Source: a virus
Direction: 5' to 3' (one strand)
IMG/VR virus record: IMGVR_UViG_3300032289_001330
Location: 1 to 38,724 of that record
DNA: 38,724 nucleotides
Shown here: one piece after another, positions 2,180-33,364 of the stretch
How positions within the stretch are numbered: position 1 is the first letter of the stretch
Layout of the letters: each line of letters begins with the position of its first letter
Position numbers and translations under genes: made by a program
The notes under the pieces: generated by a model
The model's database searches: none
What the model was told of the DNA's origin: nothing
Seen by the model: only the letters and a program-made list of their open reading frames with translations

Positions 2180-3571
2180 TTAAGAAGGAGTCGCTAGTTC
2201 AAAAAACTTCTTTCGTAGATAATCTTTATCATCATGATCAAAGTCTTGTTTAGTTCTTTGTTGCTGTTTTGGTTGGCCATCTGACTCCTCATTATCCTCT
2301 ATATATTCGCCAGTAATGCGAGTTATACCAGTAGATCCTTCAAAATCACAATTGAAGGTAATACCATCTGTACCATAGCGGTTTTTAATAATATGCCAAC
2401 GAGAAGTATTATCTACTTTATCTTTGCGTAGACGAGATGTAGAGATAATAATATCACCAATCATGATTTTATCATACGAGCCAGCAGCTTTGTCACCCTC
2501 TACTACTTTATCAGCAGCACCTGAGCGATTTACTTGGGATGGTGATACAATTGGTATACCTAATTCCTTAGCTAATCCTTTAGCATCAGTATAGATATCA
2601 TCTAAATCATCTTTACGTTCATTTCTAGTACGTTGGCGATTTTTTAACAAATCCAAATAATCAATAAAGATAACATTGGGTTTAAAATTATGTTGGTTCC
2701 ACAATTGATCCAAATGACGCTCAATATCATCTAATGATGCACGTTTTGGTGGGTACTCTTTAATAATTAATTTACCTGCTAATCCTTTAGTTGCTTCTTC
2801 GATTTTAGTTCGATGAAATGATAGTTGATCAACTGGAATATCAAGTAGATTAGCATCAAAACGTTGTCCAACATATCCTTCACCTAATTCTAATGTGTAG
2901 TATACTACTTTACCACCTAATTTAACAGCTTCTAATGCCATCGAAATAGCAGCCCATGATTTACCAGAACCAGGTCCACCAAAGAATATAATTAAATCAC
3001 CTTTACCAATTCCACCTTGCGTAATGGAATTAATCTGTGGCCAAGGTGTAGGAATAACACGTCTGTCGTCTGGTCTATAACGTGCTTCAACATCTAATGC
3101 AAGATCATGTCCCGTATTTTTTTCTTGTGATGTAATGATTGCTTTAGAGATTAATGAACGAATCGATTCGTAATCGCCATCTTCAAGCAAACTAACAGAT
3201 GTCATAATTGCTTTCTTCATCTGTTGGTTTTGGCAGAATTTTAGGAATTCCTGCTCGATATATTCTTTATCGTGTGCGCTGTCTGCCATTTTATAGGCTT
3301 CCTTCAATTCCTCAATAACAGCAATCTTTAGTACCTCGTTGTCTTCTTTTTTTACTTCGATTTGAAGTGCCTCCATTGTGGGAGTAGTATGGAATTCGTC
3401 GAAGTATTTATTTAATTTAGTTACAATCCATTTTCTAGCTGTATTTTCAAAATAATCTTCTGTAACTGAATCCGATACATCTACTAGAAATTTCCTATCT
3501 GTTAGTAACAAACCTAATACTTTGGTTTGAAACGAATTACCGTATTTATCTAAACTTTCTAATGAAGTCAT
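2180..3571 (-). CDS. gp41: Replicative DNA helicase, DnaB/T4 gp41 type
   Basis: Hexameric 5'-3' helicase that unwinds DNA at the phage fork. The 463-aa protein has an N-terminal helical domain (about 1-150) and a RecA-like motor domain. Walker A is GGPGSGKS at 198-205, Walker B is VIFID at 300-304 followed by YLDLL, and later segments SPSQVNRSG and SRLRKDK match the DnaB H3 and H4 regions. Length matches T4 gp41 (about 475 aa). It follows the exonuclease gene by 42 bp and precedes thioredoxin. A primase is not seen in this window, so it must be encoded elsewhere or supplied by the host. The C-terminal 40 residues are acidic and Gln/Lys-rich, possibly a partner-binding tail. Recombinase alternatives are excluded by the DnaB-type C-terminal motifs. 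Confidence 0.93.
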   Translation of the reverse strand: MTSLESLDKYGNSFQTKVLGLLLTDRKFLVDVSDSVTEDYFENTARKWIVTKLNKYFDEFHTTPTMEALQIEVKKEDNEVLKIAVIEELKEAYKMADSAHDKEYIEQEFLKFCQNQQMKKAIMTSVSLLEDGDYESIRSLISKAIITSQEKNTGHDLALDVEARYRPDDRRVIPTPWPQINSITQGGIGKGDLIIFFGGPGSGKSWAAISMALEAVKLGGKVVYYTLELGEGYVGQRFDANLLDIPVDQLSFHRTKIEEATKGLAGKLIIKEYPPKRASLDDIERHLDQLWNQHNFKPNVIFIDYLDLLKNRQRTRNERKDDLDDIYTDAKGLAKELGIPIVSPSQVNRSGAADKVVEGDKAAGSYDKIMIGDIIISTSRLRKDKVDNTSRWHIIKNRYGTDGITFNCDFEGSTGITRITGEYIEDNEESDGQPKQQQRTKQDFDHDDKDYLRKKFFELATPS

Positions 3572-3598: not shown

Positions 3599-3618
3599 TA
3601 TAATCTAGAAAGATTATA
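3599..3618. other. Perfect 8-bp inverted repeat at the exonuclease 3' end
   Basis: TATAATCT and AGATTATA flank a 4-base loop, and the exonuclease stop codon lies inside the right arm. The stem is AT-rich and is not followed by a T-run on the minus strand, so it may be an mRNA 3'-end or processing hairpin rather than a true intrinsic terminator. Confidence 0.35.
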
Positions 3619-4645
3619 ATTTCCAATCTAATGATGAGAAGTTTTCAATAAGCCAGGACTGCCAATCTATACGCTCATTTAATTGGTCATCCTCCGTCAT
3701 TTCAACGAAATTCCCTATATTCAGTGATGGGGGTGCATTATCAATTACATCATCAACGATGCGCTTATCCTCGTCGTCTATGTTCGGATCTTTTAACGAC
3801 ATTAATTGATAATTAATACCTAATTGACTTTCAAATTGAATTATTTTAGTATATAATTGATTTTTATCTTCATTCAACTTTGCTTTATTTATCATATAAT
3901 CTAAATCAATAGGAGTAGACTCCATTAATTCAGGATATAACTTAAATACTTTTTTAGGACCTAATCCTTGAATTCCAGGAACGTTATCGCCCGAATCCCC
4001 TAACAACATTTTGTAATTAATAAAGTTATTTGGATGTACAAAATATTCTTCTAATACATCATCAGCTCGGTATGTTTTCTTTTTAGTTGGCGAGTATATT
4101 TCTGTTTTATCTGATATTAATTGTAGAAAATCCTTATCAGCAGACATAATTGTTACTTTATCTGTTTTGGGGTCTGCTTCAAATTTTTTAACTAAATAAC
4201 CCATCACGTCATCTGCTTCAATTTTTGGAATACAAATCATCGATACTGGTAATTGGGTGCAATATTCAATTAATCGCCCCATTTGATTAGCCATTGATTC
4301 GCTTTCTTCCTTTTTATCGCCAAATACTTTCCAATTAGTTACTTTAATATTAGTACGGTTTGCTTTATAATCAGCATATAAGTACTTCTTATTAGTGGAA
4401 TTGCCCTGTCCATCAAACACTAAAATAACCCTATTCGGTTGGTATAGCTTAATAGCATAACCAACCGATTTAAGGAAGCCAACAAGACCACCTACATGGT
4501 GGCCGTTGGGATTTAAGTGTTGAATAATGGCAAATGAGCGTAGGAATGTATTCATTGAATCTACAATGAGTACTCTAGCATTTTTTGAATTATTTTTATC
4601 TGCGCTTAGTTCAGAAAATAACTTATTTAGAAAATCTTTATCCAT
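3614..4645 (-). CDS. 5'-3' exonuclease / flap endonuclease (FEN, T4 RNase H-like)
   Basis: Removes RNA primers and 5' flaps from lagging-strand DNA. The 343-aa protein shows the PIN/FEN catalytic acid pattern: D29 in VLIVDSMN, D78 in LVFDGQ, E143/D145/D146 in KIEADDV, D170 and D172 in SADKDF, and D217/D220 in LGDSGDNVPG. The last motif leads into the helix-3-turn-helix DNA-binding element GIQGLGPKKV (about 224-233). Length is close to T4 Rnh (305 aa) and T5 D15. It overlaps the start of the preceding 81-aa gene by 8 bp and is followed by the helicase gene. All catalytic carboxylates appear intact, so it should be active. Because the polymerase A relative here has no 5' nuclease domain, this stand-alone enzyme likely supplies that activity. 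Confidence 0.94.
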   Translation of the reverse strand: MDKDFLNKLFSELSADKNNSKNARVLIVDSMNTFLRSFAIIQHLNPNGHHVGGLVGFLKSVGYAIKLYQPNRVILVFDGQGNSTNKKYLYADYKANRTNIKVTNWKVFGDKKEESESMANQMGRLIEYCTQLPVSMICIPKIEADDVMGYLVKKFEADPKTDKVTIMSADKDFLQLISDKTEIYSPTKKKTYRADDVLEEYFVHPNNFINYKMLLGDSGDNVPGIQGLGPKKVFKLYPELMESTPIDLDYMINKAKLNEDKNQLYTKIIQFESQLGINYQLMSLKDPNIDDEDKRIVDDVIDNAPPSLNIGNFVEMTEDDQLNERIDWQSWLIENFSSLDWKL

Positions 4646-4906: not shown

Positions 4907-6013
4907 TTAGTCATTATCTAATTCATCATCAATAGCAATTGTTGGAGCAATATTTTTACCTTCATCCCATTCGCTGCTATCTTCAGTAATTTGTAGATCA
5001 TCTACATCTGTTAGTCCATTAAACCATTCACGTGCATGTTCTTTCTTGTATTTAGCAATCGCATTTGGTGTATCGCTAATAAAACCATGCGGAGTAACAA
5101 TAATAGTAGAAGCAGTTGCTACACCACAATCAGCGTGGATTTTATCAATCGCTATTTTAGTACGTTTAGCAAATTCTACTGATTTGCCATCTTTAACGGC
5201 TTTAATTTTGGATGTACCTGAATTAGTTACGTTACCATAAGTAATAACTACTGCTGCATCCCAATACATCGTATCTCCACCTTTATTAGTACGTTTAGGT
5301 TGTGCCATTGGCATCATAGCCGGCTGAACACCCGTTTTATTAATAACAAAAAATGTATTCGTGTATGGATATTTTTCCTTACGTGATAATGGAAATTGCT
5401 GATTAATAAAGTTACCAAATTGAGTAGCCATTGCTCCCGCATTCCACATTGGATTGTTTTTGCCCTGATCCACACTCATTTGACATGGTAGTGATCCAAC
5501 CGAATCCCACAGAAATAACAAATCGTATGGTAAACGTCCTTTGGCTTGCTCATTCATAATGTCTGAAATGAATGCAGCTACATCTTCAATATGATTAATT
5601 GATGATCTATCAATATAAAGGAAAAAACCATCATAATTAATTATCTCACCTGTTTCTTCATCTGGGATTGCTGTTAATTCCAATCCCATTTTTTGTGCGT
5701 GAGAGAAGTCCCACTTCATTTCCGAAATAATAAATACAGGCAATATGCCCATTTTCTGAGCAGTAACAGCAGTTTCAATAAGTAAAGTTGTTTTACCTGT
5801 ATCTGAACCTCCACGCGCAATTGTGATTTGTCCCATTGGTACTCCAGGAATGGAAAGTGCATCTTTCACTGCTGGAGTAAATGGAATCCATTTTTGTTCT
5901 TTAAATTTAGTAGTCTGATCTAAGTATTTAGATTTCTTAAATGCAGATAAGTTAAATTTAGACTTGTCACCCAAAATATGGGTGACAGTCTCGGATGGTG
6001 ATTTTTTAGCCAT
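4907..6013 (-). CDS. uvsX: UvsX/RecA-family recombinase
   Basis: ATP-dependent strand-exchange protein driving recombination-dependent replication and repair. The 368-aa protein has Walker A GGSDTGKT at 68-75 (a GxxxxGKT variant with Ser-Asp in the middle), a catalytic-Glu region IISEMKWD near 95-102, and Walker B LLFLWD at 165-170. The segment near 225-245 with INKTG, PMAQPKRTNKGGD and YWDAA matches the DNA-binding loop L2 and C-terminal core of UvsX. Length is close to T4 UvsX (about 390 aa), and the C-terminus is acidic, as in RecA proteins. Its start overlaps the SSB stop by one base (TAATG), implying translational coupling with its ssDNA-binding partner. UvsY and UvsW are not seen in this window. 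Confidence 0.93.
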   Translation of the reverse strand: MAKKSPSETVTHILGDKSKFNLSAFKKSKYLDQTTKFKEQKWIPFTPAVKDALSIPGVPMGQITIARGGSDTGKTTLLIETAVTAQKMGILPVFIISEMKWDFSHAQKMGLELTAIPDEETGEIINYDGFFLYIDRSSINHIEDVAAFISDIMNEQAKGRLPYDLLFLWDSVGSLPCQMSVDQGKNNPMWNAGAMATQFGNFINQQFPLSRKEKYPYTNTFFVINKTGVQPAMMPMAQPKRTNKGGDTMYWDAAVVITYGNVTNSGTSKIKAVKDGKSVEFAKRTKIAIDKIHADCGVATASTIIVTPHGFISDTPNAIAKYKKEHAREWFNGLTDVDDLQITEDSSEWDEGKNIAPTIAIDDELDND

Positions 6014-6858
6014 TATTTAAATAATTCGTCGAATTTATCTGATGAGTTTGTGTTCAAACTAAATGATTTATCTTTAGTAGAAGGTGCCTGAGTTAAAGCC
6101 TCCCATTCTGGTGATACTGCTGGAGTTGGGTCTGCAGGTGTTGGGGCAGGTGCAGCAGGTGATGCTTGTTCTTCCTCAGCTTCTGGATTTAACCACTTAG
6201 CCAATAATTCCTTAATATCATTGTATTCACGTTTGCGATTAATAGCCATGATATCAGGTTGTTCTTCTAAGAATTTATTAATCAAATTAACATCATCAGA
6301 AATTGGTGACGCTTTTGGACGAGGACGTAATGTGCAACTAACTACTTTACGACCAGCTACTTCAGCGTGTACTGCATCGATTTTAAAATCAAACCCATCA
6401 TGGATGTCAGTAAAATCACCATAATCTTCATCAGCAGCAAATCCTAGTAATGATTTGTATACTTCTTTTCCAAATTCCCATAAACGAACACCTAAATGCT
6501 CTTCACCACGAACAATAACAGGAACAAATACACGCATTTTTGGATCTAATTTCTTAGCTAATGCCCAGTTGTCGCGATCTTTTGATTGACGTAATTTTGC
6601 TGCAAATTCCATAATTGGGTCTGCTTCTCCAAAGTTGTTTAGAGCCAATACTGGTCCTTTAGCAAATCCATAATGGAAATACACTTCCTTAAATGGGTTT
6701 TGCTTATTTGCTTTTGCGGGTACGATGCGAATCGTATAATTGCCTACCTGAGGCTTCCAGAACACTTTCGTGTAGTCGATTTTTTCGTAAGTCTTACCGC
6801 TGCTTCCTTTAGGAGCGTTAAGATTACCTAATTTTTGCTTTAACAAAGCTAAATCCAT
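6013..6858 (-). CDS. gp32: Single-stranded DNA-binding protein, T4 gp32-like
   Basis: Coats ssDNA at the fork and assists UvsX. The 281-aa protein has the gp32 layout: a short basic N-terminus (DLALLKQKLGNL), a central OB-fold region with FWKPQVGNYTIRIVP, a PFKEVYFHYGF segment and VFVPVIVRGEE, then a Pro/Ala linker (about 225-250) and a C-terminal tail SSDKFDELFK with the acidic-aromatic ending used for partner binding. T4 gp32 holds a zinc ion with His and three Cys; this protein has only one cysteine overall (in VSCTLRPR), so the zinc site is missing. It is coupled to uvsX by a TAATG overlap. Assignment rests on architecture, neighbourhood and motif resemblance. Confidence 0.88.
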   Translation of the reverse strand: MDLALLKQKLGNLNAPKGSSGKTYEKIDYTKVFWKPQVGNYTIRIVPAKANKQNPFKEVYFHYGFAKGPVLALNNFGEADPIMEFAAKLRQSKDRDNWALAKKLDPKMRVFVPVIVRGEEHLGVRLWEFGKEVYKSLLGFAADEDYGDFTDIHDGFDFKIDAVHAEVAGRKVVSCTLRPRPKASPISDDVNLINKFLEEQPDIMAINRKREYNDIKELLAKWLNPEAEEEQASPAAPAPTPADPTPAVSPEWEALTQAPSTKDKSFSLNTNSSDKFDELFK

Positions 6859-6912: not shown

Positions 6913-7347
6913 CTACAGATTAATTATCTTGTAGATTTTTGTTTGAATGATATTTAAATCATTATTTTGAATTAACAAGATTGAATTTTTATAATCTATC
7001 CATGTAATTCGATACTTGGTATCTAATATACCGTTGTTTAAAGACTTTATTAATGCATTTAATGCATTTATTGTATATAACGTATTTGACTCCTTTTTTC
7101 TGTGTAATAATATAGTATTAGGTAGCACAGATTGTTGCTCCATATTGAATGTGTCTATATTATAAGTGCAAACATACTCTTCAGTCGATAACGATTCCAA
7201 CACAAATATTTTAGAATATAAAATAGTATATTTGGTCTGTAAAGTATTTAGAGTCTCGTCTAGTTCTTCAGGAGCCGTGAATGTGCAGAATAGCTTATTA
7301 GCCATTAAAAATATATCATTAAATAAATCGTAACTTAAGTCCAACAT
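6913..7347 (-). CDS. Hypothetical protein between polymerase A-like gene and SSB
   Basis: A 144-aa protein that I do not recognise. It is acidic to neutral, Leu/Ile/Asn/Thr-rich, without obvious membrane segments or cysteine clusters (three scattered Cys). An internal ATG at 7305 begins MANKLFCTFTAPEELDET, which looks like a natural N-terminus; the first 14 residues from the upstream start may not be translated. It lies 11 bp after the polymerase A-like gene and 54 bp before the SSB gene, so it is probably part of the replication operon. A role as polymerase accessory factor or regulator would be speculation. Coding is supported by operon position and the absence of a competing frame. Confidence 0.65.
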   Translation of the reverse strand: MLDLSYDLFNDIFLMANKLFCTFTAPEELDETLNTLQTKYTILYSKIFVLESLSTEEYVCTYNIDTFNMEQQSVLPNTILLHRKKESNTLYTINALNALIKSLNNGILDTKYRITWIDYKNSILLIQNNDLNIIQTKIYKIINL

Positions 7348-7358
7348 AAATATACGGT

Positions 7359-8651
7359 TTATTTTATTTCTGCGTAGTTGTGTCCAAATTTCGTAGAGTA
7401 ATTAAATTTTAGTAGTGAAGTTATGCTATCTAATAAATTCTCCGATGAATCGTAATCTAGTAATATAGAATCATATGTGTATAATATAATTTTAGTTTTT
7501 TTATCTTTAAGTAAATTTACTACAGCAGAAAATTGCACTACATTAAATACGGTTTCTGTATTTTGAACAATATAATTAAGCAATTTTTGTGGTGTTGGAT
7601 TTTCAATCATTTGTTTAGTAAATCGCTTACCGAATTGTGCACCAATTGCTTCTTCATTACTCCATAATTGATTCGTATAGTTATTTACTTGCTTAAAGAA
7701 CGGTTTATCTTGGAAATCCTTTCTAACACCTCCATATAACTGCTGAAATACTAGTTCCTTAATTGTTTCGGGTGTTGATCCTGAAAATTCATTAGCTAAT
7801 TGATCATATATGTTTCCTACAAATTCATATCCAGCTAATTTAGCTATAATTGTTGGATGGTATGCTTTAAAGTCAATCTCAACTAACGAATCGTTTTCTG
7901 GGATAAATGCAGCACGTTCTCCATTTGTTTTATTTAAAGCAGCAAAATTAATACCGTTAAATGCGTTTGATGGTCTGCCAGTTAATGTATTTAGATTGTA
8001 TTGTGTATATATTTTACCTTTAGATACTGAAAATTTAGGATTAGGTAATGTTTTAAAATGTTCAATGAATGGCTCCTTACTTAATTTAATGCCTTGTTTT
8101 TCAATATTATAGAATAACGGAGCAATATAATGATTTAAAAAATCATATTCACGTATATTTTCGCTTATTTTATTAATTGTTTGCTCAATATGATCATATA
8201 CGTTTTCATACTTTTCATAATGTTTTGCTATAGGAATTAATGTTGATGGTGATTCTGTGTAGTATTTACATTTAAAATCAGTTTCAACTTTTGATTCGTA
8301 TTGTTCTACATTAATATCTTGTAATGTATGATATGAGCTAATTAGTTGCACATCAATTAGTTGGGGACTCAACGTAGGGAAGTGGTGTAACACCGCTTTC
8401 TTATCTAATGTGTATAAGTTATCGACTTTAGATAGTTTAGCGAGTATATCGGTGATTGATAACGATAGTGATTCTGAATGATTAATACATAAAATGTATC
8501 CTTTATGTCCTTTTATCCATCGAACATAAATTAGACTAATGTTTTGTAAAGCAGGGTGGTAATTTTCATTCGTTGGGATAATATGAATGAATGTGTCTTT
8601 ACCAATATGTAACTGATCTAGTTGATCTTGTTTTTCAATAATATAAAACAT
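7359..8651 (-). CDS. Divergent, compact family-A DNA polymerase
   Basis: The 430-aa protein aligns by eye along the DNA polymerase I core. TGRPS (224-228) matches the TGRLSS motif; motif A is VEID260FKAYHP; motif B has K298, F302 and Y306 in the exact K-x3-F-x3-YG spacing; N359 and Q363 match the N-x3-Q of the NAPMQGTAAD helix; motif C is YTYD394S; and the end GHNYAEIK resembles Pol I's terminal NWDQAH. Both catalytic aspartates are kept, but Pol I R754 (Pro here), E710 (His here) and H881/E883 (Tyr/Ser here) are replaced. Only about 25 residues separate the pre-thumb helix (IEKQGIKL) from the GRIHT-like KGKIYTQYN, so the thumb seems absent. Residues 1-150 resemble a 3'-5' exonuclease domain lacking the DxE motif. 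Length compares with 704 aa for T7 polymerase. A replicative role is unproven. Confidence 0.85.
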   Translation of the reverse strand: MFYIIEKQDQLDQLHIGKDTFIHIIPTNENYHPALQNISLIYVRWIKGHKGYILCINHSESLSLSITDILAKLSKVDNLYTLDKKAVLHHFPTLSPQLIDVQLISSYHTLQDINVEQYESKVETDFKCKYYTESPSTLIPIAKHYEKYENVYDHIEQTINKISENIREYDFLNHYIAPLFYNIEKQGIKLSKEPFIEHFKTLPNPKFSVSKGKIYTQYNLNTLTGRPSNAFNGINFAALNKTNGERAAFIPENDSLVEIDFKAYHPTIIAKLAGYEFVGNIYDQLANEFSGSTPETIKELVFQQLYGGVRKDFQDKPFFKQVNNYTNQLWSNEEAIGAQFGKRFTKQMIENPTPQKLLNYIVQNTETVFNVVQFSAVVNLLKDKKTKIILYTYDSILLDYDSSENLLDSITSLLKFNYSTKFGHNYAEIK

Positions 8652-8666
8652 AGTATAACCTTTTAA

Positions 8667-9206
8667 TTAATTTCCTCCAATATCTCCTAATGGCGGTAAA
8701 GACAAATTATCTAAAAATGCTTTTATACCGGGCATTTGTTGTTCGAACTGATTATAATCTAATAAAGAAGCATTAGGTCCCCAAAGTATATTTAAAGTGT
8801 AGTAAAATTTAGTAGCTCTAGCATTAGTATATGTTTGTTTATCTACTTCAAGTATTGGAGAGTTTGTTTCGTTTGTTCGTTTAATAAAAAATCGATACAA
8901 TGTATTCGGTGATGGTGTATAATTAACTCGAACAATCGGAAATTCATCTTTTTTAATAATATTAATTATATTTGGATTGATACGCATATAGACAGGATCA
9001 ATTTTTGATAGATTATATGCTGCTACTTCTCGATTTTGAGTATAAGGCACTAATTCAATTGAATTTGGTTTGTACGTAGCACCAATATATTTTTTTCCTG
9101 AAACTGAATGGTAGTATCCTACATAATTATCATAAGTTCTAACCAGTAAATATTCATTACCTTTAGTATATAAATTCTCTAGTATTTGATTTTTTGGAGG
9201 TCTCAT
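8667..9206 (-). CDS. Hypothetical protein following the hub gene
   Basis: A 179-aa protein of unknown function. It opens with MRPPKNQILENLYTKGNEY and contains a tyrosine-rich, beta-strand-like first half (VGYYHSVSGKKYIGATY) and an ending SLPPLGDIGGN. No cysteines, signal peptide or membrane segment is visible. It follows the hub/peptidase gene by 13 bp and precedes the polymerase gene by 15 bp, so it ends the tail module. A virion or baseplate component is the most natural guess from position. No enzymatic motif is evident. Confidence 0.7.
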   Translation of the reverse strand: MRPPKNQILENLYTKGNEYLLVRTYDNYVGYYHSVSGKKYIGATYKPNSIELVPYTQNREVAAYNLSKIDPVYMRINPNIINIIKKDEFPIVRVNYTPSPNTLYRFFIKRTNETNSPILEVDKQTYTNARATKFYYTLNILWGPNASLLDYNQFEQQMPGIKAFLDNLSLPPLGDIGGN

Positions 9207-9219
9207 TAGTTAATTATAC

Positions 9220-12200
9220 TTAAGAAAGTAATTTATGTACATACAAATTATATGAATTTGAATCTGTTTTATTATAATATACAAAAGAAGAACCATAATT
9301 TTGTGGAAAATCACTTGCCCATTTATTAACTTTTGGATTCAAATTAAAACTATTAATAGACGAATCAAACGACATTCCTCCAGTAAATATCTGAGCGTGG
9401 AAATGTACATTACCAGCGAAATATGAAACTACATCGCCTACATTCCATTTTTGAGTATTCATGTAATTTCTCATTTGTTCTCTAGTATATGATCTAGCAA
9501 CAAGTGTAGTATCATATCCTAATTTCTCTAATGTTTTACGCCAATTTTCATCATTAGCGTTTCCACCAGATGGTAATTTAGATCCTCTTGCTACATTAGC
9601 TTTTGGATTTTTTCTAAATGCGGTATATTTTTGAGCTATATTATAAGTATAACTAGCACATCTCCCACCAGGTCCTGGGGTCCCATTCGGAAATGTATAA
9701 TTCATAGCTGAAGCCATCGCTCGAGCGTTACCCGGAATACCTACTGGAGCCGTACCTATTGGTGTGTTATCAGTAATTAATTGGGTTGATACGTTTCCTG
9801 TAGATTGGTCATATACATATCTTTTAGTAATGGTGATTCCTATTTCAAGTGGTTTTTGTTCTTTAGTTAATTTATCAAATGATTCATCAGGGATGTATGG
9901 ATTACCTTCAATTGTTGTTGTCCATTGGTTATTAGCTCCTATGTCTTGTTTAATATTAGTAACCAAATATTGAAGTTTAACACCAACACCTTCTTCCCCT
10001 TTATAGGCTCTAGGAGTAAACGTTTTATCAATATCAAATATATTACCAATAATTAAACCACCAATACCATCTGTAGTTAATGATAATTTTGTTGGTAAAA
10101 TAGCTTTATATTTGTTATCTGATTTGTAATAGGCAGTAAAAAATGCTATTATATCGGTTAATGATTTTTTATATTTATTTATACTATCTACTAATAATTC
10201 AGAATCAAAAACATCTAATGTTTTAGTCATAGAATCAAACAATTCAGATAAATCAGATAATGCTAAAATAAACCCACTTATTTGATCCTCATTGCCGCGG
10301 TTGTTATTAAGTGGTGTATCTTTTCTGAATATATTTCTATCTTTAATTCCAGTATTATAAGCAACCATAGAACTATTTTCTAATCCTAGTTTACCAGCAT
10401 CTGACTGAGCGGCAACTGCCATAATAGTTGATTGATCAGCAAATATTTGTGATTCTAATGATATATCTCTAATAACTGATCTTTTATTACCTATTTCAAA
10501 CTTAAAAGGGGTAGGGATTTCATTAGTTGATACATAATTTACATCTGCAATATATCCAGTATTTCCATCAATTATTACTTCAAAATTATTAACATTGCCT
10601 ATTGAATTTTGAACCATTGTTAATAAGTCTTTCATATAACTCATCAAACTAATAGTTTGTTTTTCAGCTGGGTCTTGTCCTTCTAATGTTTCACTACTTG
10701 CTAGGTTATATAATGTTCTTAGATTAAGAAAAATATTAGCATGAGTGCCATATTTAATTTTTATATCATCAGTATGATATGCTTGAGAAAGTGTATTGCA
10801 AAGAGATAAGTAACCAGTTTTACTACTGTTAATGTCTTGTTTTACTTCATTTAATGTTTCTTGTTGTTCTGCTGTTTTATTTTTAGCAGATTCTATAGCT
10901 CTTTTTTTTCTATCTTCTGGAGTAACTGATGTAAATGCTTCAAATACTTGAGCTGCTTTCTTTGCTGGGAGGAGTGATGCGGTTGCTTTTGAAAGATTTC
11001 GAACAAAATCATTTTCAAAATAAAATACATCATCTTGTGTAATGCCTAATCCACTAAATACTTCAGGAGCACTAAATTCATTTAAACTACTTGATTTTAA
11101 ATTTTCACCTACTAAAAAATCATAAAAAGTTTCATTATATTTAGTATAATAATAATCAGAAATACCAGCTAATTGTTCTTTAGTAGTTATTTTTGATAAT
11201 ATATTTTTAAATTCTTGTTCCTTTCCACCAAAAACTCCATCATTTGCTCTTATATCCTTTAATTGCTTAACTATAGACTCATATTGTTGATTTGTTTCTT
11301 TTACTGGCAATGTATTGATTGTATCTATTGGTTGGTCAGTTTCATTTATTTTAATTCCTTGAATTAATTTTTCAAAAAATGGATTTTTTATAATGCAGAC
11401 ACGTGGATCAACTGAAATTTGTAATGGGTGGTATAAGCAACGAAGAGGTTGACCCGCATGTACTGAATCCGGTCTATCATCTACTGATAGTTTAATTATA
11501 TTTTTATTTGTTTCTGTAGAATCTGGATTTTCTAATAATATAAAATTATTTAATAATTCAACAAATGAACGTAATGTGATATAGATATTAGAATCATCAT
11601 CAGTTACATATCCTTGGGTTGATTCTTTACCATCATTAGCATCCGAATCAGTTGATGTTATCCCATCCTTTTCTAATTCAATTTCTTTTGTAGCAAAATC
11701 AATCCTACCTGTTTTTCCATTGTTTGCTGTATATGGTATAATACCTGAACCTTCATTTATTGATGTAAATCTATCGGGATTAATTATACCTACTGCAGCC
11801 GCAACTGCAACAGTACCAACAACAGCGGCACCAACTGGATTTGATGCTAATGCAGCAGCGACAGGTAAAGTCCCAAGTGCTGATGTACCCGCAGTTTCTT
11901 TTACTAAAGCATATGTTTCTGCTATTAAACCGGCTAATGCATTTCTACGATATTCTTTTTGTATTTCTTCTATTTTATTATATCGTATGTTGGATAGTAA
12001 AGTACCACTACTATTTGATGATACCGAAGCACCAGAATAATTTATCTTTAATGATTCAAGGATTTCACCTGTAGATATAATTTCTGTAGAGCAATCATAT
12101 CCCCCATCTGGTCTGTATTTCCAGCTATAATTTTTAATATAGCCAAACATGGCATCATAATTACCAAAACTACCTAATGCTCTACCTCGTAGATCACTTA

Positions 12201-12792
12201 AATATTTTTGGATATCTATGTTTTTATGTTTAAAGAAATCTTCATCTTGATTAATTTGATTAACTAACTTACCAGTTTTATTATCAACATAAGGTATCCA
12301 CCCCCACTCTAACAATACTGTATAGCCGGGGCGCATGTAAAGTGTTTCTAATATTTCAAGTTGTTTTACATCCCAACATTGAAAATTAACAGTTGCTTGA
12401 CGTAATGAACCATATGCACTTTTACTTTGAATAGATATATTTGTTATACCAGGCATTGGTTTAAGACCAAGTATATTAGGTTCAATTATATTTAATGATT
12501 TATTATAAACACTAGTATCATATATACCTAAACCATTTTGACCAATTCCTCTTCTTTGTTGATTGCCAGATAATAAAGCACCACCCATTAATACATTATC
12601 TGTAGCTAATCCATCTGCACTTATTCTACCATTAAATTCAATATCAACACTAGAACGTAATTGTATCCATGCTGTTTTTGAATTTAAATATACTATATCT
12701 TGGGAAGTACGTTGATCTCGACCAATTATATCTTGACGAATATTTAATTGATTGGCTATCCTTGAATCAAATGGTTCTTTAAATAAAGACAT
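9220..12792 (-). CDS. Large baseplate hub/tail protein with C-terminal CHAP-type peptidoglycan hydrolase
   Basis: A 1190-aa tail protein. The N-terminal third holds beta-rich segments typical of phage hub proteins (ITNISIQSKSAYGSLRQATV, then RPGYTVLLEWGWIPYV). Residues about 300-340 are a hydrophobic Ala/Val/Gly-rich stretch, and the centre is long and mixed. The last 150 residues form a papain-like CHAP/NlpC-type domain: GGRCASYTY with catalytic Cys1045, a GDVVSYF strand, and VHFHAQIF with His1132 as probable catalytic His. It should act at the tail tip, cutting cell-wall peptide or amide bonds during DNA entry, the job done by the gp5 lysozyme in T4. It follows the LysM-like gene by 5 bp. 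Whether the N-terminus corresponds to gp27 cannot be decided by eye. Confidence 0.85.
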   Translation of the reverse strand: MSLFKEPFDSRIANQLNIRQDIIGRDQRTSQDIVYLNSKTAWIQLRSSVDIEFNGRISADGLATDNVLMGGALLSGNQQRRGIGQNGLGIYDTSVYNKSLNIIEPNILGLKPMPGITNISIQSKSAYGSLRQATVNFQCWDVKQLEILETLYMRPGYTVLLEWGWIPYVDNKTGKLVNQINQDEDFFKHKNIDIQKYLSDLRGRALGSFGNYDAMFGYIKNYSWKYRPDGGYDCSTEIISTGEILESLKINYSGASVSSNSSGTLLSNIRYNKIEEIQKEYRRNALAGLIAETYALVKETAGTSALGTLPVAAALASNPVGAAVVGTVAVAAAVGIINPDRFTSINEGSGIIPYTANNGKTGRIDFATKEIELEKDGITSTDSDANDGKESTQGYVTDDDSNIYITLRSFVELLNNFILLENPDSTETNKNIIKLSVDDRPDSVHAGQPLRCLYHPLQISVDPRVCIIKNPFFEKLIQGIKINETDQPIDTINTLPVKETNQQYESIVKQLKDIRANDGVFGGKEQEFKNILSKITTKEQLAGISDYYYTKYNETFYDFLVGENLKSSSLNEFSAPEVFSGLGITQDDVFYFENDFVRNLSKATASLLPAKKAAQVFEAFTSVTPEDRKKRAIESAKNKTAEQQETLNEVKQDINSSKTGYLSLCNTLSQAYHTDDIKIKYGTHANIFLNLRTLYNLASSETLEGQDPAEKQTISLMSYMKDLLTMVQNSIGNVNNFEVIIDGNTGYIADVNYVSTNEIPTPFKFEIGNKRSVIRDISLESQIFADQSTIMAVAAQSDAGKLGLENSSMVAYNTGIKDRNIFRKDTPLNNNRGNEDQISGFILALSDLSELFDSMTKTLDVFDSELLVDSINKYKKSLTDIIAFFTAYYKSDNKYKAILPTKLSLTTDGIGGLIIGNIFDIDKTFTPRAYKGEEGVGVKLQYLVTNIKQDIGANNQWTTTIEGNPYIPDESFDKLTKEQKPLEIGITITKRYVYDQSTGNVSTQLITDNTPIGTAPVGIPGNARAMASAMNYTFPNGTPGPGGRCASYTYNIAQKYTAFRKNPKANVARGSKLPSGGNANDENWRKTLEKLGYDTTLVARSYTREQMRNYMNTQKWNVGDVVSYFAGNVHFHAQIFTGGMSFDSSINSFNLNPKVNKWASDFPQNYGSSFVYYNKTDSNSYNLYVHKLLS

Positions 12793-19287: not shown

Positions 19288-19947
19288 TTATTTATTAGAT
19301 TTCTGTCTATTTTCTGTTTTAGTTAAAGGCTGCAGGTTAGAATAATGGAAGCACTGCTTCTGTTGTTCTATGTCTATTAAATTAAATTTATCACAAGGGA
19401 TAATATGATCTATCTCCCAATAAATACCATGATTTTCCCAAAACATTAACTCAGTAAATTGTTTTTCTATATGTTGTTTTACTTCATCTAAACTACATCC
19501 TAATAGTACAATTATATTTGATGTTTTATTTGTTTTGTTTTTCTTTAGAACTCCATTCAGTCGATTACCTAATACAATCCTTAATTTAAATTGTGGATCT
19601 GTATTGTATCTATTTATACGATACTGATTATAATATTCAGGATTATTTTTTAAGTATTTAGCTGTTGCTTTGCGTCTTACTTCAGGATTATCTTTACCAT
19701 ATTGTTTGTTTTTTTTAATATAATGTTCTCTATTATCAATGTAATGTTTTTTATTCCATTTTGATATTTTTTCTTTATTAATTGTATTGTATTCTTTAGT
19801 TTTATCTTGATTGATTATATTATAAGTATTCATATATTCGTTAACACATTCCTTACATTTACTCTTTACGCCGTATTTTCCATTTTTATCTTTAAAGAAA
19901 TTATCTAATAATTTTTCAGTATTGCACTTTGTACATATTTTTGTCAT
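19288..19947 (-). CDS. Free-standing HNH homing-type endonuclease
   Basis: A 219-aa protein with an N-terminal zinc-knuckle (C5-x2-C8 and C31-x2-C34), a long basic Asn/Tyr/Lys-rich middle that probably contacts DNA (YNTINKEKISKWNKKHYID), and a C-terminal HNH nuclease: WEIDHIIPCDKF with D180-H181, then N204 in YSNLQPL and N213 in TENRQK. It sits between the sheath and tube genes, which are adjacent in T4-like phages, so it is a likely selfish insertion. It has its own ATAAATATATAA element and is bounded upstream by the sheath terminator. The enzyme would cut phage genomes lacking it near this locus; this is known behaviour of such enzymes, not shown here. Catalytic residues appear intact. Confidence 0.88.
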   Translation of the reverse strand: MTKICTKCNTEKLLDNFFKDKNGKYGVKSKCKECVNEYMNTYNIINQDKTKEYNTINKEKISKWNKKHYIDNREHYIKKNKQYGKDNPEVRRKATAKYLKNNPEYYNQYRINRYNTDPQFKLRIVLGNRLNGVLKKNKTNKTSNIIVLLGCSLDEVKQHIEKQFTELMFWENHGIYWEIDHIIPCDKFNLIDIEQQKQCFHYSNLQPLTKTENRQKSNK

Positions 19948-31148: not shown

Positions 31149-31841
31149 TTATGTTAGACCGAAACGTGATTTTTGTGCATTGTAGTTTTGTAGTATTTCT
31201 GATGCGTTTAGAGCTCTGTTGTATATTTTAAATGAGCCCATGTTTGCATTTATAAAAAATATTAAATTGGATTTATTCTGCCAAAATGCACCTATTTCAT
31301 ATTTATTTCCTGTTCCTGTTGTTGTTGCGTTTCTATAAGCAGCAGTACCTATTAGTACTGAATTAATATAAAGTTTAGCATTGGATGATGCTGCGTTAGT
31401 AACTATAACATGATAATATGAAGTTGTTACTATTGTTGGACTAGAAGAAAATGCATTATTATTACTATCTCCTGTATTCCAACTCCAAACTCCGCTAGAA
31501 GCAAATATACCTAATCCAGAACTATAAGTATCAGTTGCTAAACCATAAAAAACAGGATTATTTGACGGATCTATTTTTAAAAATGTTTCAACTGTTACAT
31601 CTGTTCCTAGTCCTTGAGTTAATGGACCAGTAACATAATTACTATTTGCTGCTGTAAATAATAGATTACCTCCATTATTCGCACTAAATGTAAAAGAACC
31701 ATTTAATGATCCACTATTATTATTCCCACTTAAATCAGTCCAAGTAGTTCCACTTCCAGGATATGAATTTTTATCGCTAGCATCTAATGCTAATACTAAT
31801 CCATTTGTTACTATTTTTCCACTTGCGTATTGTACTGCCAT
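31149..31841 (-). CDS. LamG/concanavalin-like adhesin, third of three tandem copies
   Basis: A 230-aa single-domain protein with a Laminin-G/concanavalin-like pattern: LVLALDASDKNSY, TTWTDLSGNNNSGSL, then beta strands and a final SFKIYNRALNASEILQNYNA. These motifs are typical of LamG-like domains used for glycan or protein binding. It is the last of three paralogs in transcription order, each opening and closing with the same motifs and separated by one base. There is no signal peptide. It is likely a virion adhesin or fibre-tip subunit because it lies between two fibre genes. Ligand unknown. Confidence 0.82.
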   Translation of the reverse strand: MAVQYASGKIVTNGLVLALDASDKNSYPGSGTTWTDLSGNNNSGSLNGSFTFSANNGGNLLFTAANSNYVTGPLTQGLGTDVTVETFLKIDPSNNPVFYGLATDTYSSGLGIFASSGVWSWNTGDSNNNAFSSSPTIVTTSYYHVIVTNAASSNAKLYINSVLIGTAAYRNATTTGTGNKYEIGAFWQNKSNLIFFINANMGSFKIYNRALNASEILQNYNAQKSRFGLT

Positions 31842-31842
31842 A

Positions 31843-32688
31843 TTATAATTCGTTTACTAAAGCAACTGCATTAGCGGCTCCAAATGATGGATATCCAACT
31901 AGTACATTTGTAAATTCTAACACATCATTGAACGATTCAATTGCTGTTGTAGTGTTTAATGATGTATATGTAATTATGTTTGGTGTTGTTCTGTTAAAGC
32001 GTGTTTTGTATTGGTTGTAGTTTTGTTGTACTTCTGATGCGGAGAGCGCTTTATTATATATTTTAACTATACTAATACTTCCACTTATATATGAACTTCC
32101 TACACTGCTGTTTCTTCCTAAATTTAAATAATACGGAGAACCGTATGCGTTGTAATCCATATTTCCGGTAAACGGAGAATAATTTTGTTCTAAAATTCCA
32201 TCTCTATATATTTTAGCTGATGATCCATCATATGTTAAAGTAGCATATGTCCAGGTGTTAATACTTAGAACACTTCCTCCGATTTGAGCAATAGATCCAC
32301 TACTATTGATATACCCATATAATCCACCACTTATCATTCTAAATCCATATTTAACAAAACTCCCAATAGCATCACCTGAATAAGCTATTATGTAACTATT
32401 ATTTAGATTACCTACTTTTAAAACACATTCTAAAGTTAAGGATATGGGTGGTTGTAGAATGGGGTTATTTGCTATAGAAATATAGCTATTTATTCCATTA
32501 AAACTAAAACTACCTAAGCTATCATTATTTAATGATGGTCCATTTATGATCGATCCAGAAGTATTATTTCCTGATGTATCGGACCATATTCTACCTTCAT
32601 TTTTATTAAAGCTGTTTGCATCGGATGCATCTAATGATAAAACTAAACTTGAATCTCGTATTATATTTGGTCCTGCTGATATTCCCAT
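31843..32688 (-). CDS. LamG/concanavalin-like adhesin, second tandem copy with C-terminal extension
   Basis: A 281-aa paralog: LVLSLDASDANSFN, RIWSDTSGNNTSGSI, and KIYNKALSASEVQQNYNQYK. Unlike its neighbours it has about 50 extra C-terminal residues (TPNIITYTSLNTTTAIESF and on), Thr/Asn/Val-rich, which could be an oligomerisation or binding addition. The interior strands differ strongly from the other two copies while the N- and C-terminal motifs are kept, as expected for diversifying receptor binders. It is one base from each neighbour. Start ATG chosen because it repeats the spacing of the paralogs. Confidence 0.82.
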   Translation of the reverse strand: MGISAGPNIIRDSSLVLSLDASDANSFNKNEGRIWSDTSGNNTSGSIINGPSLNNDSLGSFSFNGINSYISIANNPILQPPISLTLECVLKVGNLNNSYIIAYSGDAIGSFVKYGFRMISGGLYGYINSSGSIAQIGGSVLSINTWTYATLTYDGSSAKIYRDGILEQNYSPFTGNMDYNAYGSPYYLNLGRNSSVGSSYISGSISIVKIYNKALSASEVQQNYNQYKTRFNRTTPNIITYTSLNTTTAIESFNDVLEFTNVLVGYPSFGAANAVALVNEL

Positions 32689-32689
32689 A

Positions 32690-33364
32690 TTATTTTAAAT
32701 TAAAACGAGATTTTGATGCGTTATAATTTTGTAGTATTTCTGATGCGGATAGTGCTCTGTTGTATATTTTATAAATACTACCATTTCCTACAAAGTATCC
32801 ACCTCCTAACGAACGACCTATTAATATATTAGTTGTACCTATAAATGAATCAATACCTCCAGCACCTTGTAATGCTCCATTTTTATAAATTGATGCTAAA
32901 CGACTAGATCTTCTATAAGTATAACATATATTATTCCATGCATTTAATGTTCCTGTTCCTACACCATAATCTGCCCCATAATGACCTTGGTATATTGTAC
33001 CGGCGGCACCTCTAAACACTAAATGTAATCCTTGTCGAACTGCTTGTGTATCTGTCCCAAACATAGTTCTATCACCAGTAAAATTAGTAGGATATACCCA
33101 AGCATCAAATGTATAATCAGCATCATATACTCCTAACTGAGTTGCTGTTTTTCCAATATCAATATAATCATCTGTTCCATCAAACACAATACTACCACCA
33201 TTAGCAGAACTAAATGTAGGCCCATTTACTAATGTCCCATTATTACTATTACCACTTAAATCAGTCCAAGTAGTAGAACCAGATGCATAGCTATTTCTAT
33301 CACTAGCATCTAGTGATAAAACTAATCCGTCTGTTACTATTCTACCTCCATTTGCAAATGCCAT
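32690..33364 (-). CDS. LamG/concanavalin-like adhesin, first tandem copy
   Basis: A 224-aa paralog with LVLSLDASDRNSYASG, TTWTDLSGNSNNGTL, IVFDGTDDYIDIG and a closing YKIYNRALSASEILQNYNAS. The FDGTDDYIDIG strand is a classic LamG-type element. It lies one base after the 1073-aa fibre gene. Being the least decorated copy, it may represent the ancestral form. As with the others there is no enzyme motif, so a binding role is more likely than catalysis. Confidence 0.84.
   Translation of the reverse strand: MAFANGGRIVTDGLVLSLDASDRNSYASGSTTWTDLSGNSNNGTLVNGPTFSSANGGSIVFDGTDDYIDIGKTATQLGVYDADYTFDAWVYPTNFTGDRTMFGTDTQAVRQGLHLVFRGAAGTIYQGHYGADYGVGTGTLNAWNNICYTYRRSSRLASIYKNGALQGAGGIDSFIGTTNILIGRSLGGGYFVGNGSIYKIYNRALSASEILQNYNASKSRFNLK

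Follow-up and report, generated by a model that had tools for sequence, protein, structure and literature searches.

A thumbless family-A DNA polymerase of the divPolA1 type and its linked companion gene in a viral replication module

Introduction

How can a DNA polymerase grip DNA without a thumb, and for what reason would large phages maintain, within the replication module, a second polymerase that does not proofread? Both questions are raised by one gene in a stretch of viral DNA of 38,724 nucleotides (positions 1 to 38,724 of IMG/VR record IMGVR_UViG_3300032289_001330; hereafter, the window). An earlier note, made from the letters of this DNA, had described the product as a Pol I-like protein of 430 amino acids with ordered motifs, apparently without a thumb and with a dead proofreading domain, and had considered that it may represent a distinct polymerase lineage.

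A family of this kind was named divPolA1 by Yutin et al. (2024, Virol J 21:200; PMC11348598), who described it in 14 phages. In the sections of their account drawn on here, divPolA1 has a truncated thumb, an inactivated exonuclease, a conserved palm and a neighbourhood of replication genes, and the phages that carry it, of which Flavobacterium phage immuto is a named example, have a regular family A, B or C polymerase elsewhere in the genome. A text search of the literature found the name divPolA1 only in that paper and its preprint.

Results and Discussion

A divPolA1-Type Polymerase in the Window

The polymerase gene of the window is an intact open reading frame (Table 1). The profile search for PolA suggested by the earlier note gave a divided answer: the window sequence alone is not matched by the PF00476 model and finds no convincing match in Pfam, PHROGs or the PDB, whereas a profile of 16 sequences (the window and 15 IMG/VR relatives) matches Klenow with an E value of 4.1e-5. 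Two of these 16 aligned members match PF00476 at E 0.01 (best 5.2e-6), and the divPolA1 copy of phage immuto clears the cut-off of that model with 43.9 bits. The AlphaFold2 model (mean pLDDT 85.8; pTM 0.85) aligns along its full length with large fragments of Pol I, most closely with Bst Pol I (4dqp_A; Z 26.8), and the superposition of 405 aligned residues (rmsd 3.8) includes palm and fingers of the Pol I fold. Profile and predicted structure, which is clearly PolA-like, confirm the earlier observation that the product has a family-A polymerase fold. That the gene could be one fragment of a split polymerase was rejected: it is whole, the genes on either side (the companion at 6913-7347 and the gene at 8667-9206) have no polymerase match in Pfam or PHROGs, and the model of the companion is beta-rich and not a helical thumb.

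Table 1. Features of the polymerase locus, in window coordinates (residue numbers refer to the window polymerase).
Feature	Position	Strand	Remarks
divPolA1-type thumbless family-A DNA polymerase	7359..8651	(-)	430 aa, ATG start, intact ORF
N-terminal degenerate 3'-5' exonuclease-like domain	8202..8651	(-)	residues 1-150, limit approximate; fold match to Pol I large fragments
Short linker at the position of the Klenow thumb	8004..8081	(-)	residues 191-216; profile alignment and spacing
R226, Pol I R668 equivalent	7974..7976	(-)	117/117
D260, motif A metal ligand, D705 equivalent	7872..7874	(-)	117/117
Y264-H265, at Pol I I709-E710 (sugar/steric gate)	7857..7862	(-)	conservation in 117 sequences
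Motif B, K298...F302...Y306 (K-x3-F-x3-Y)	7734..7760	(-)	each 117/117
D394, motif C metal ligand, D882 equivalent	7470..7472	(-)	117/117
Companion gene	6913..7347	(-)	144 aa, no recognised family; 11 bases downstream of the polymerase gene
gp32-like single-strand DNA-binding protein	6013..6858	(-)	PF08804, E 6.9e-11; phrog_1192
UvsX/RecA-like recombinase	4907..6013	(-)	PF00154, E 2e-7; phrog_97
5'-3' exonuclease, Pol I N-domain type	3614..4645	(-)	PF02739, E 4e-32
DnaB-like replicative helicase	2180..3571	(-)	phrog_19, E 9.8e-82

The best annotated hit of the window polymerase is phage immuto (tblastn E 7e-62; 32% identical, 97% covered). Given this homology and the published description of divPolA1, the window polymerase is, by sequence, an addition to a family already described and not a new lineage; the distinct lineage suspected in the earlier note exists, and had been published in 2024. 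The window member comes from an IMG/VR fragment, unlike the genomes listed by Yutin et al. (PMC11348598), and the relatives found in Microcystis phage Mel-JY01 and in the 484-kb LR756508 also lie outside the 14 genomes listed there. Four bacterial MAG contigs encode relatives as well, which are probably binned phage DNA. Altogether, 195 loci gave a polymerase hit, of which 169 were full enough to use, yielding 117 distinct sequences, the window included. Five comparisons with relatives gave dN/dS values of 0.08-0.16; the polymerase gene is under purifying selection.

Loss of the Thumb and of the Exonuclease Site

Positions 163-200 of the family profile align with Klenow chain residues 201-238 and positions 204-416 with residues 326-583, three profile positions facing 87 residues of the Klenow thumb. 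From the IEKxG glutamate to the TGR arginine, the residues that bracket the thumb, the distance in Klenow is 127 residues (chain index 218 to 345), against 38-43 in 116 of 117 family members and 23 in the polymerase of Mel-JY01. The linker that occupies this place forms a single 8-residue helix (192-199) in the AlphaFold2 model. Alignment to Klenow, model and structural match thus agree with the earlier note on a family-A fold with no complete thumb, and because the thumb subdomain is absent, we class the window protein with divPolA1, a derivative of PolA, and not with the standard Pol I enzymes. Considering the function of the thumb, a polymerase that lacks both proofreading and thumb is expected to be weakly processive.

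In the model comparison, residues 1-150 match the fold of the exonuclease domain that opens Pol I large fragments, but a conserved DxE proofreading motif is absent from this section in the 117 sequences. The only residues acidic in at least 90% of members are E6, E60, D100, E146 and E149, and the active DEDDy set (equivalents of D355, E357, D424 and D501) does not occur in residues 1-150 of these sequences, in accordance with the earlier assertion that the domain is inactivated. One detail of that assertion is to be corrected: DVQLISSY, formerly read as exo III, aligns instead (with low confidence) with the FDTMLESYIL segment of Klenow, whereas exo III corresponds to the stretch KHYEKYE, and D501 seems to align with E149 there (again a low-confidence alignment). 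Klenow and Bst Pol I have palm and fingers in common with divPolA1, as well as the exonuclease-like domain (Z 26.8 over 405 residues); unlike them, divPolA1 has neither the thumb nor the exonuclease acids, and its equivalents of R754, E710, H881 and E883 are changed. Bst Pol I is likewise exonuclease-deficient. Two histidines inside the dead domain, H32 and H58 (window 8556-8558 and 8478-8480), are invariant (117/117) and E60 is present in 116 of 117 sequences; the histidines possibly belong to a new binding surface.

An Altered Active Site and Sugar Gate

R226, D260, K298, F302, Y306, Q363 and D394 are invariant in all 117 distinct full-length sequences, at identities to the window polymerase down to about 25%, and R246 is Arg in 116 of them. 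Such conservation means that the polymerase motifs listed in the earlier note are not due to chance; all are present, except that N359 is no fixed residue (N in 92, S in 23 and P in two of 117). The numbering of R668, D705, E710, R754, K758 and D882 was checked on the E. coli PolA sequence; from the alignment, we take K298, F302, Y306, Q363 and R246 to be K758, F762, Y766, Q849 and R682 of Pol I.

Four other Pol I positions are replaced family-wide and a fifth with them, much as had been read from the single sequence for R754, E710, H881 and E883. The E710 position is occupied by His (116/117; Gln in one), that of I709 by Tyr (115/117; Phe in two), that of H881 by Tyr (116/117; Phe in one) and that of E883 by Ser (66) or Ala (51), while an Arg four residues before K298, the counterpart of R754, occurs in none of the 117 sequences (Lys in three). 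E710 of E. coli Pol I blocks ribonucleotides, as reported in the consulted parts of PMC9324360 and PMC13136892. The polymerase of Thermus phage Tt72, a natural and active PolA, has Ser at the E883 position as some divPolA1 do, but also, unlike divPolA1, a thumb and active proofreading (PMC9324360, as far as drawn on here). Because of these conserved and changed residues and the precedent of Tt72, divPolA1 probably is a working enzyme whose contacts to the nucleotide are altered.

The nucleotide choice of divPolA1 is of interest in view of the replaced sugar gate. With both ribonucleotide-exclusion positions of Pol I replaced (E710 by His, I709 by Tyr) throughout the family, the enzyme could conceivably use rNTPs, as a primer-synthesising or RNA polymerase: E. 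coli Pol I mutated at I709 incorporates more ribonucleotides (PMC13136892, in the part consulted), and Yutin et al. weighed the possibility that a separate family, divPolA2, acts as an RNA polymerase (PMC11348598, in the section on that family). We regard this as quite improbable, since the bulky His may still gate, and a DnaG-type primase is matched in six of the nine records tested and so is not missing there, with no match in the other three. The same matches weaken the idea that a missing primase is the reason for the divPolA1 gene.

The divPolA2 polymerase of barbaviruses is another small PolA that lacks a standard thumb and coexists with a regular PolB (PMC11348598, same section). A profile comparison of divPolA2 AUR84708 with divPolA1 found no alignable relation (E 0.06 over 39 columns, at unrelated positions), and by eye divPolA2 keeps in motif A (DFKAFE) and motif C (FDE) the Glu residues that divPolA1 has lost.

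Family-B polymerases have a motif DxxSLYPSI. The likeness to it of motif A of the window polymerase (DFKAYHPTII) was dropped, as the ordinary family-A enzyme of immuto also has a Pro there (DYTSLEPH).

A 144-Residue Companion Encoded Next to the Polymerase

The gene immediately downstream is strictly linked to that of the polymerase. The companion follows in 82 of 82 distinct IMG/VR polymerases with room for it (117 loci from two polymerase scans, 13 lacking downstream room and identical polymerases counted once). In the reverse direction, a polymerase lies upstream at each of the 77 companion loci that have room, as counted among the best 80 of 543 companion matches (three without room). Both counts under-sample divergent members. 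The stop-to-stop distance is -55 to +31 bases in 75 of the 77, and 626 and 694 bases in two. Among phage records, six contain polymerase and companion together, and no others do so.

The companion is also the more conserved of the two: relative to the window, it is better conserved than the polymerase in all 82 loci where the latter is less than 60% identical, and its dN/dS is 0.05-0.10 (four comparisons) vs. the polymerase range given above. Positions conserved in at least 95% of 117 rows include H82, R83, K84, K85, N88, Y91, N94 and N97, and the protein carries a conserved block HRKKxxNxLYTIN. The model (pLDDT 83.6) is beta-rich, with an N-terminal half predicted to be ferredoxin-like. The best PHROG match (0.066) was obtained in one of 15 members, the best structural match in the PDB has a Z of 6.5, within the range that the tool calls uninformative, and BFVD holds one real match, an uncharacterised phage protein of 126 amino acids. 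The origin-binding domains of SV40 and JCV T-antigen match the model at Z 6.2 and 5.8, respectively. Comparison by hhalign with T4 RegA, gp62, gp44, gp45, RpbA, gp59, gp32 and a partial gp33 found no similarity in a test that is not very sensitive, as the single-strand DNA-binding protein of the window, compared with gp32 single sequence to single sequence, reached only E 0.005.

Such linkage and conservation are what an obligate partner of the polymerase would show, but they are no proof of contact. The companion is the first candidate for what the earlier note had called "another protein as clamp or thumb". Its gene also adjoins that of the single-strand DNA-binding protein, and the companion could instead serve gp32, UvsX or the helicase. 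We raise as a tentative possibility that polymerase and companion form an obligate two-part enzyme, in which the beta-rich protein would act as a thumb in trans and His/Tyr would stand in for the Glu/Ile gate; if true, this would be a second phage polymerase of a build undescribed in the literature drawn on here. The sections of PMC11348598 drawn on here do not discuss the His gate or the 144-residue companion. Specialist attention is best directed to the altered sugar gate and to the strictly linked companion.

The Replication Module and the Regular Polymerases

Genes for a single-strand DNA-binding protein, UvsX, a 5'-3' exonuclease and a DnaB helicase lie downstream of the window polymerase, a neighbourhood typical for divPolA1. 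The complete order, polymerase, companion, single-strand DNA-binding protein, UvsX, 5' exonuclease and helicase, recurs, sometimes with small insertions, in immuto, Mel-JY01, LR756508 and those IMG/VR loci that are long enough.

The earlier note had weighed the window enzyme against the family-B gp43 with which T4-like phages normally replicate; that it stands in for gp43 is contradicted by those relatives in which an additional family-B, full-length family-A or family-C polymerase can be seen. Another polymerase was found in 14 of 21 records, including each of the 11 that are 118 kb or longer. The 21 were scanned for PF00136, PF00476 (all but G010-G018) and PF07733 (all but G001, G003-G005 and G007-G009). 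Family B is matched in nine records of at least 118 kb (G001, G003, G006, G010-G014 and Mel-JY01), among which G013 and G014 have identical scores and may be near-duplicates. Record G001, with its PolB, holds a divPolA1 91% identical to that of the window. Immuto has a family-A polymerase of 777 amino acids with an intact DTET exonuclease motif in its translation, and LR756508 has family-B and family-C matches beside divPolA1. The remaining seven records, fragments of 34-108 kb, had no regular polymerase among the families run. LR756508.1 (484 kb) is a case of three polymerase families in one genome; its family-B matches fall in two open frames (1022 and 625 aa) in different places, possibly a split or interrupted gene.

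Two further readings turn on these co-resident enzymes. The presence of another polymerase in every record of at least 118 kb, together with the missing thumb, the dead exonuclease and the changed equivalents of R754, E710, H881 and E883, could point to divPolA1 as a catalytically dead or near-dead relic, kept in the main replisome as a subunit that has a structural role or binds the primer-template; indeed, such losses could leave very low activity. We hold this to be unlikely, as a dead scaffold would not need D260, D394, K298, F302, Y306, R226 and Q363, each of them invariant in 117 of 117 sequences. That divPolA1 is itself the main replicative polymerase, the family-B or full-length family-A enzyme being accessory, appears highly improbable. 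It does reside in a tightly conserved replication module, whereas the context of the regular polymerase is variable (also stated in the relevant part of PMC11348598), but it lacks proofreading and thumb, and most of the polymerases that accompany it have full length (outside LR756508, the family-B open frames measure 855-888 aa; the family-A enzyme of immuto is another case). A T4 gp62-type clamp-loader match in five of nine records, one over the curated cut-off, also speaks against it. The sliding clamp gp45 (PF09116) was matched in none of the nine, although a diverged clamp could escape the model.

The Probable Role of divPolA1

We favour, with a probability of about 0.62, the reading that divPolA1 serves the replication/recombination module as a second polymerase, active and exonuclease-deficient, and probably works with the 144-residue companion, its activity being judged from the residues that it conserves. 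It would be a non-proofreading and weakly processive enzyme within the gp32-UvsX-5' exonuclease-DnaB module, alongside a family-B (or family-A or -C) enzyme responsible for bulk replication. Because a thumbless enzyme without proofreading shares its module with a 5' nuclease and a recombinase, with another polymerase to copy the genome, its task may be short synthesis: the filling of gaps after primer removal, or the extension of recombination intermediates. The gap-filling role is chosen from gene context. The 144-residue protein would probably act with the polymerase and may supply contacts to DNA or to the single-strand DNA-binding protein in the stead of the missing thumb.

Other Genes in the Window

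Just upstream of the polymerase, a rapidly diverging gene of about 180 codons (8667-9206, minus strand) has similarly placed counterparts in most of the listed divPolA1 loci, often with a YTxGxE...GYY-like segment near the start. It is perhaps virion-related, since baseplate genes lie beyond it. A protein of 1190 amino acids without PHROG match is encoded at 9220-12792 (minus strand), close to a baseplate wedge-like gene, and a long protein of variable length (654-1509 aa) recurs at the corresponding place in relatives. Three consecutive genes at 31149-33364 (minus strand; 230, 281 and 224 aa), all matching both phrog_24074 and phrog_8510, constitute a tandem array of related proteins, probably of the virion. 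An Endonuclease VII-like gene (phrog_1035; 19288-19947, minus strand) is located between the genes for the tail tube and the tail sheath.
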